From the NCBI RefSeq assembly GCF_009806555.1, contig NZ_VUOK01000034.1:62001-126000 (forward strand): DNA of 64,000 bases, in the 5' to 3' direction. Under the pieces are notes generated by a model. That model was not told the DNA's origin. It did not search any database and worked only from the letters and a program-made list of their open reading frames with translations. Made by a program: the position numbers and the translations under genes. The DNA comes from Methylobacterium sp. 2A (GTDB lineage Bacteria > Pseudomonadota > Alphaproteobacteria > Rhizobiales > Beijerinckiaceae). Shown here in pieces: positions 54,355-55,719 of the stretch; position 1 is the stretch's first letter, and each line of letters begins with the position of its first letter.

Positions 54355-54583
54355 CGAGGCCGGCACTGCCGCGCCCGTTTCGGCCGTGCCGAGGATTGAT
54401 CACGCCGATACCGAGATCGTCTCGGGTCCCGCCAGTTCAGTTCCTCCCGGGCGATGGATGTTTTCGCAGCAATGTCGATGTCAGCTCAATATTTGTCGCA
54501 CTCAACTAATACTAGTTTGATCAAAACTGCGTAATTTCAGAGCATCGTGCCCAACATGTAACAAATTTGCATCTTTTTAGTCG

Positions 54584-54647
54584 TTGACATGGCCGATTTA
54601 AGCCAATCATATTTGTATCTCGGCGAAAGATTATTGCCTTACGGCAA
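54584..54647 (+). promoter_or_regulatory. Candidate promoter and inverted repeat before the chemoreceptor-like gene
   Basis: TTGACA at 54584-54589 is followed, 17 bases later, by TCATAT at 54607-54612. An inverted repeat TTGCC-TTAC-GGCAA lies at 54634-54647, 20 bases before ATG 54667. The surrounding 54455-54660 stretch is strikingly AT-rich. No gene lies in 54355-54666. Confidence 0.5.
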
Positions 54648-54666
54648 ATATTGAGACCTGCTTAAC

Positions 54667-55719
54667 ATGTCAAGTTTGACCCTATCGGATATCGTGGGCA
54701 GCTCCGCCGAGACGCTCAAGAGGAATGCCGCCGGCAATCTAAGTTTCATCAGATCGATCGCGCAGCGCATGAAGCTTCTGGCGCTCAACGCGCTGATCGA
54801 GGCGGCGCATGCCGGTGAGAAGGGCGCCGGCTTCTCGATCGTCGCGCAGGAGGTCCGGACGGTATCGGCGGAGGTCGATCGCGTGGCCTCCGCGCTGGGC
54901 CTCAACCTGAGTTCCGAGATCGACCAGCTGACCGACGCGGTCGGGCGCCTCGCCGAGGAGACCCGGGCGGCCCGGTGCGTCGACCTCGCCCTGAACGCGG
55001 TCGAGCTGATCGACCGAAATCTCTACGAGCGCACCTGCGACGTCCGCTGGTGGGCAACCGATGCCGCCGTCGTATCCTGTGGCGCGGACCCGAGCGCGGC
55101 GGCCGTCGCCTACGCCACGGAGCGCCTGGGCGTGATCCTGTCCGCCTACACGGTCTACCTGGACCTGTGGCTGTGCGACCTCGACGGCCGCGTCCTCGCC
55201 AACGGCCGGCCGGAGACCTACCCGGGCGTGGTCGGCTCGCAGATCGGAGACGAGCCCTGGTTTCGGCAGGCGCGCGCTCTGCCGAACGGCGACGCCTTCT
55301 CGGTCGCCGACATCCGCAACGAGCCGCATCTCGGCGGTGCGCAGGTGGCGACCTACTGTGCGAGCGTGCGCGCCGAGGGCCGCGCCGACGGCCCCGCGCT
55401 CGGCGTGCTGGCCATCCACTTCGACTGGCAGCCTCAGGCCCGGGCGATCGTGCAGGGCATCCGCCTCGGCCCGGGCGAGCGCGAACGGACGCGGGTCATG
55501 CTCCTCGACGCCAGGGACCGGGTGATCGCCTGCTCGAACGGGGGCGGCGACCTGACCGAGGTGTTCCGGCTGCGCACCGAGGGCCGGCCGCATGGCCACT
55601 ACCGGGACGGCGCCGGCCATCTCGTCGCCTTCCACGAGACGCCGGGCTACGAAACCTATCGCGGGCTGGGCTGGCGCGGGGTGATCGCGCAGCGGATCGG
55701 CGAGGGCTGGACGCGATGA
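54667..55719 (+). CDS. Soluble chemoreceptor-like protein with C-terminal Cache-type sensor
   Basis: The 350-residue protein has no transmembrane helix. Residues about 30-75 carry a methyl-accepting chemotaxis signalling tip (IAQRMKLLALNALIEAAHAGEKGAGFSIVAQEVR). Most of the long receptor hairpin is missing. From about residue 110 it is a Cache/PAS-like sensor (DRNLYERTCDVRWWATDAAV, AYTVYLDLWLCDLDGRVLANGRPETYPG, DEPWFRQARALPNGDAFSVAD). Placing the sensor after the tip reverses the usual order. It may report a cytosolic ligand to CheA/CheW, but that is inference. Confidence 0.8.
   Translation: MSSLTLSDIVGSSAETLKRNAAGNLSFIRSIAQRMKLLALNALIEAAHAGEKGAGFSIVAQEVRTVSAEVDRVASALGLNLSSEIDQLTDAVGRLAEETRAARCVDLALNAVELIDRNLYERTCDVRWWATDAAVVSCGADPSAAAVAYATERLGVILSAYTVYLDLWLCDLDGRVLANGRPETYPGVVGSQIGDEPWFRQARALPNGDAFSVADIRNEPHLGGAQVATYCASVRAEGRADGPALGVLAIHFDWQPQARAIVQGIRLGPGERERTRVMLLDARDRVIACSNGGGDLTEVFRLRTEGRPHGHYRDGAGHLVAFHETPGYETYRGLGWRGVIAQRIGEGWTR

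Follow-up and report, generated by a model that had tools for sequence, protein, structure and literature searches.

A putative soluble chemoreceptor of Methylobacterium with a minimal, tip-first signalling hairpin and a predicted cytosolic dCache sensor

The soluble receptor TlpD of Helicobacter pylori carries its CZB sensor C-terminal to the signalling domain and retains a full-length hairpin, and YfmS of Bacillus subtilis is a short soluble receptor. The cytoplasmic receptor DosM of Vibrio cholerae is double-headed and is described as joining arrays by its tips (PMC7534058), while MtpA of Methylobacterium aquaticum 22A is a cytosolic MCP without a membrane helix, for which only an MCP domain and conservation in clade C members are reported (PMC10613068). 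Upadhyay et al. report Cache families as principally extracellular save two small ones, with 78% of the domains confidently so, and state that an extracellular Cache can signal only via its C-terminal helix (PMC4822843). The gene described here lies in a stretch of 64,000 nucleotides from Methylobacterium sp. 2A (the window), and from its sequence and structure models we infer that the product is a soluble chemoreceptor whose signalling hairpin is minimal and whose C-terminal arm bears a cytosolic dCache sensor. It resembles TlpD in being soluble and in having the signalling domain ahead of the sensor, but the sensor is a dCache rather than a CZB domain, and the hairpin arm measures about 50 residues instead of full length. 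With DosM it shares the cytoplasmic location and the proposed entry into arrays via the tip; however, DosM is reported to carry a signalling domain at each end of an extended rod (PMC7534058). Compared with Tsr and Tar of the E. coli core signalling unit (6s1k, 1qu7), the hairpin tip (approximately residues 340-441) and the core tip residues are alike, but the periplasmic domain, the transmembrane segments, HAMP and the methylation helices are missing, and the sensor sits on the C-terminal arm.

The open reading frame (Table 1) had been read in the initial annotation as an MCP tip followed by a Cache-like sensor, an order that Pfam, the structure models and the layout of the family all bear out. 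Its start ATG is backed by near relatives (e.g. L051, L056, L055), in which Met lies equally 36 residues from the tip motif. MCPsignal (PF00015) matches residues 25-99 (E 1.4e-14, 54.7 bits against a Pfam cut-off of 34.6), covering just positions 39-112 of the 172-position profile. A dCache_1 (PF02743) match at residues 65-301 stays below the Pfam cut-off (E 4.6e-5, 23.5 bits against 45). The annotated lack of a membrane helix is likewise confirmed, as a hydropathy scan of this protein found no hydrophobic 19-residue stretch; by the same measure the Cache departs from the rule of lying between two transmembrane helices (PMC4822843). An MgtC-family gene lies upstream and a threonine dehydratase gene downstream on the opposite strand; a PADLOC search for a defence role returned no match at E <= 0.01.

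Table 1. Coordinates of the features within the window
Feature	Position	Strand	Basis
AT-rich leader, 39% G+C	54455..54666	+	composition
TTGACA-17-TCATAT, promoter-like	54584..54612	+	motif scan; not conserved
TTGCC-TTAC-GGCAA 5-bp inverted repeat, probably chance	54634..54647	.	repeat scan, shuffles
Tip-first chemoreceptor ORF, predicted soluble, 350 aa	54667..55719	+	ORF list, Pfam
MCP hairpin tip, residues 1-101, ~E. coli receptor residues 340-441	54667..54969	+	Pfam, superposition, invariant residues
Hairpin apex near residue 51	54817-54819	+	as for the hairpin tip
dCache sensor (predicted cytosolic), residues 95-346, first helix prolongs hairpin return arm	54949..55704	+	AlphaFold2, DctB superposition
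Hallmark CDVRWWATD with conserved Cys, residues 124-132	55036..55062	+	alignments

A model of residues 1-132 (from 63 sequences; mean pLDDT 90.4, pTM 0.65) superposes on residues 340-441 of 6s1k_E from the E. coli core signalling unit (Z 11.1, 101 aligned, 2.4 Å) and on residues 342-472 of 1qu7 (131 aligned, 3.1 Å). Receptor chains reach Z 10.4-11.1 and, with rows within 1 Z unit counted as tied, are level with unrelated long-helix proteins such as an ESCRT-III filament chain (Z 10.2, 7.0 Å), Z alone not being decisive. The receptor match is accepted because the first eight superposition rows are all receptors (20-26% identity), the first 15 Foldseek rows are receptors as well (E <= 0.001 in one only), and the sequence search agrees, the best solved match of the family profile being the receptor fragment 4jpb_B (E 1.9e-14). 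DSSP assigns a helix that is unbroken through the hairpin turn in both models, which are monomers, and the hairpin is deduced from the fragment superposition: over 101 residues, receptor chains could not be matched by a straight helix. The tip also superposes on B. subtilis YfmS in the integrative YfmS-CheW model (9a72, 286 residues; 128 aligned, 2.8 Å); there the match covers residues 154-281, so that the tip occupies the C-terminal half with no dCache behind it, unlike in the window protein. Methylation helices are not encountered, as the protein starts at the equivalent of approximately residue 340 and passes into the dCache near 441, and the positions of these helices lie outside Tsr 340-441. 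In the model, the hairpin that contacts CheA and CheW thus looks whole, with the methylation/HAMP rod lost. How such a short rod would reach CheA had been regarded as unclear: the shortness stands, but the puzzle of reach largely disappears, because the approximately 100 retained residues match the receptor segment 340-441 of the E. coli core signalling unit, and the methylation/HAMP rod should be dispensable for reach in a soluble receptor.

The same genome holds 57 tip places, two of which fall in a single frame, so that there are 56 tip-bearing frames. The apex lies at residue 51 in the window protein as against residues 183-622 in the other 55 frames (the next being 183), which agrees with the annotation that most of the canonical hairpin is missing; frames were started at the first Met, so that the N-terminal lengths of the other 55 are upper bounds, and four frames (L003, L009, L015 and L169) reach the edge of their stretch. 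In 39 of the 55 other frames, apex and C-terminus are 138 residues apart. One of the tip-bearing loci (L010, 319-2262 on the minus strand, contig C34 of G000) encodes a soluble frame of 648 aa that carries two MCP signalling domains, similar to DosM; a CheA match at 131592 is approximately 7 kb away.

For the sensor, an AlphaFold2 model from 28 sequences (mean pLDDT 88.1, pTM 0.71) annotates a single helix at 6-120. The dCache fold, with two tandem Cache modules behind a long N-terminal helix, is seen by superposition: residues 95-346 match 3by9_B, the DctB sensor of V. cholerae (Z 21.1, 220 aligned, 2.4 Å; this structure search covered mainly the residues from 89 on), and many further dCache sensors superpose at Z 17-20. 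The DctB sensors of S. meliloti and V. cholerae (2zbb, 3e4o, 3by9) share the double Cache fold but are periplasmic, membrane-anchored and coupled to a histidine-kinase output; by sequence, no solved structure other than S. meliloti DctB is a credible relative of the sensor (E 2.7e-4). The sensor is also homologous to the dCache of Methylobacterium HWE histidine kinases (L131, L132), including the HxDW and GLGW motifs, but in these kinases it precedes the kinase output, has hydrophobic segments around it (judged by eye) and lacks CDVRWWATD. The latter belongs to the family hallmark DRNL[YF]ER[TS]CDVRWWATD and does not vary in any of three alignments, with 28, 63 and 6 sequences. The smallest of these includes two Betaproteobacteria, in which C124, W128, W129 and D132 are kept, but H251 and H323 are not; L046, which lies outside those alignments, reads CEVRWWATD. 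The position before the W/YF pair is Glu in the window protein and variable in its relatives, with Arg in a few, and amino-acid and dicarboxylate dCache sensors have their pocket Arg just before this pair. Here the Cache comes after the output domain, and in the model its N-terminal helix prolongs the hairpin, unlike in an extracellular Cache.

The computed layout, folds, conservation and co-occurrence with CheA lead us to propose, with somewhat better than even confidence, a cytosolic, homodimeric, tip-reduced chemoreceptor that feeds an internal signal to CheA arrays, the dimer, its insertion into arrays, the direction of signalling, the internal ligand and the lack of adaptation being our extrapolation. 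The dCache domain would sense an internal cue, and since the hairpin's return arm runs on into the first Cache helix, a sensor change would be passed to the tip through this N-terminal helix, the reverse of a membrane receptor, and would there shift the activity of CheA. Because the helices carrying the methylation sites are missing, no canonical adaptation would be expected, leaving an unadapted internal-state input to arrays that are shared with the full-length receptors of the cell. More tentatively, the family may be a widespread and undescribed class of tip-only chemoreceptors, with about seven heptads per arm, a Cache relocated to the cytosol and signalling through its N-terminal helix, and no methylation sites, in which C124 of CDVRWWATD might confer an internal, possibly redox or electrophile, input to mixed arrays without adaptation. 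To our knowledge, 24H is the shortest chemoreceptor class, and arms of about seven heptads would be shorter still. If the protein does control CheA, about 100 receptor residues would be enough for kinase control in nature, with neither HAMP nor methylation helices nor membrane required, and the share of the rod in signalling as against adaptation or reach would become separately testable. Signalling via the N-terminal helix would then be the counterpart of the statement that extracellular Caches use the C-terminal helix only (PMC4822843).

The family alignment comprises the window protein and 88 distinct relatives that are 53-77% identical to it, with the tip-first layout in common. Of 578 candidate stretches in the genome contig collection, 525 code for relatives of the sensor part, and the best 80 loci were kept. 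A homologous frame is found at each of the 110 loci L021-L130, a set with overlap between its named and unnamed collections, in which L021 is the window locus itself. Methylorubrum thiocyanatum (L052) and M. aminovorans (L056) are among the species with a relative. The tip pattern search missed seven of them: at L035, L039, L042 and L046 the tip is there with small substitutions, L058 matches MCPsignal at E 2.4e-14, and the remaining two are L062 and L066. Frames of approximately 1,090 aa at L120 and L123 had the appearance of fusions, but their extra N-terminal stretch looks like non-coding read-through, judged from composition. Within the genus, a match at E <= 1e-40 occurs in 78 of 111 genomes (only in pieces in G013 and G014), with only weak matches in 15 and none in 18; five weak matches were fetched, and the two put through Pfam are dCache-HWE histidine kinases. 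Beyond the genus, the class sample gives a match at E <= 1e-25 in 28/289 genomes (in G205 only as a C-terminal piece and in G353 over residues 18-187), and the phylum sample in 30 of 398 at E <= 1e-20, two of these outside the class. Nine plasmid records have a match, among them Burkholderia, Caballeronia and Paraburkholderia, and in the four that annotate it the product is always a methyl-accepting chemotaxis protein. No description of a tip-first MCP-dCache receptor was recognised among the matches listed from open-licence PMC papers. By description, the presence in 78 of 111 genus genomes differs from the clade C pattern given for MtpA (PMC10613068), which weakly disfavours the window family being MtpA.

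CheA (PF02895) is present in all 111 genus genomes, so that the genus is uninformative on a link. In the class sample it is found in 28/28 family-positive genomes as against 127/289 overall (Fisher p 1.6e-11, uncorrected for relatedness), a co-occurrence that is expected for any MCP. At L058, in M. oryzihabitans, the family gene adjoins, in divergent orientation, cheA together with cheW and a pair of receiver genes, one of which extends past the end of the locus; the cheA product of 893 aa runs from Hpt to CheW-like plus receiver. Four che queries from L058 (E <= 1e-8) found no further che-flanked locus among L021-L130, with flanks of 1.5 kb for L021-L050, and as L035 and L058 are the same place, the che-adjacent arrangement was seen once. 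On an M. currus plasmid (L193) the family gene lies amid three other MCP genes and a GGDEF gene; the region also holds a BLUF gene. For the Burkholderia and Caballeronia plasmids, an incomplete gene table lists no other chemotaxis gene within 6 kb, and two further regions carry no annotation. A conserved gene neighbourhood was rejected, as the MgtC and threonine dehydratase proteins of the window, compared with L021-L130 at E <= 1e-15, matched at L021 alone, and an all-versus-all comparison of ORFs, dominated by antisense frames and Bradyrhizobium synteny, brought out no neighbour clearly in common. The receptor could also feed a CheA/CheW pathway that does not steer flagella, e.g. through another CheA of its own genome, which has three H-kinase_dim matches on three contigs, and altered tip residues could set such a choice of pathway. 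We consider this unlikely, as many family-positive genomes (e.g. G003, G007, G245, G346) have a single CheA match, and a dedicated second pathway is therefore not required.

In the tip, numbered approximately as in Tsr (window residue +340, from the superposition on 6s1k_E), 14 positions are invariant in the 89 family sequences (378, 379, 381, 382, 384, 385, 390, 393, 395, 396, 399, 400, 402 and 403) and are matched by an identical residue in 50-53 of the 53 other tips compared from the genome; 381 and 385 were already set by the pattern with which those 53 were chosen. Both groups have the core LALNA-IE, AG, G-GF and VVA-EV in common. By contrast, Thr375 (52 of 53 other tips) is Met in 65/89 family members, Asn376 (50/53) is Lys in 67, Thr383 (46/53) is Leu in 77, and Arg or Lys394 (52/53) is Ala in 64; Arg388 (52/53) is His in 28/89, including the lineage of the window gene. 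These five positions, which we take to be implicated in trimer or CheW contact, suggest that partner choice or trimer packing may differ. With a whole contact tip and no rod, the protein might alternatively act as a decoy or brake, competing for CheW/CheA or capping array growth, with the dCache merely regulating this competition, and the changes at 375, 376, 388 and 394 could spoil the trimer of dimers or kinase control while binding is kept. However, the invariance of 381, 385 and the hairpin core (89/89) is what would be expected of working kinase control, and the sensor is strongly conserved, so that such a role seems rather improbable beside the proposed input to CheA.

That the window gene is a truncated or decaying full-length receptor, the outcome that the initial annotation had named as fatal to a reversed architecture, is hardly credible: the tip-first layout is genuine, being common to 88 distinct homologues, and all 30 positive genomes of the phylum sample have open frames of 319-460 aa, which refutes truncation for this gene even though broken-looking copies occur elsewhere in the family. 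Such copies were seen at L054/L031 (the same gene, with a broken frame of ~210 aa, left out of the family alignment), at G013:C1:1394542-1395275 (two pieces) and at G205:C3:200086-200688, and may reflect sequencing error.

Upstream of the gene, the AT-rich stretch of approximately 200 bases noted earlier is real, with 39% as against 69.3% G+C for the window, and both annotated motifs, the promoter-like pair and the inverted repeat, are present in it. A special role as a promoter island is not upheld: neither motif is conserved upstream of nine near relatives that were aligned, which have no sequence in common there, and the generic forms of the motifs show no clear excess over chance. The exact strings are rare in whole-window shuffles (mean 0.00 for the promoter-like pair, 0.02 for the inverted repeat) but were picked afterwards. 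In the leader, generic 5-bp inverted repeats number 3 versus 1.6 expected (reached in 25% of shuffles) and generic promoter-like pairs 2 versus 0.6 (12%). Over 3 kb, a scan found 1 promoter-like site versus 0.3 expected. The 200 bases upstream in 24 relatives have 39-61% G+C in 22 and 69% in two. The leader lies in the deeper of only two places in the window where 200 bases fall to <= 48% G+C, the other AT-rich island being at 1571-1830 and going down to 45% G+C.
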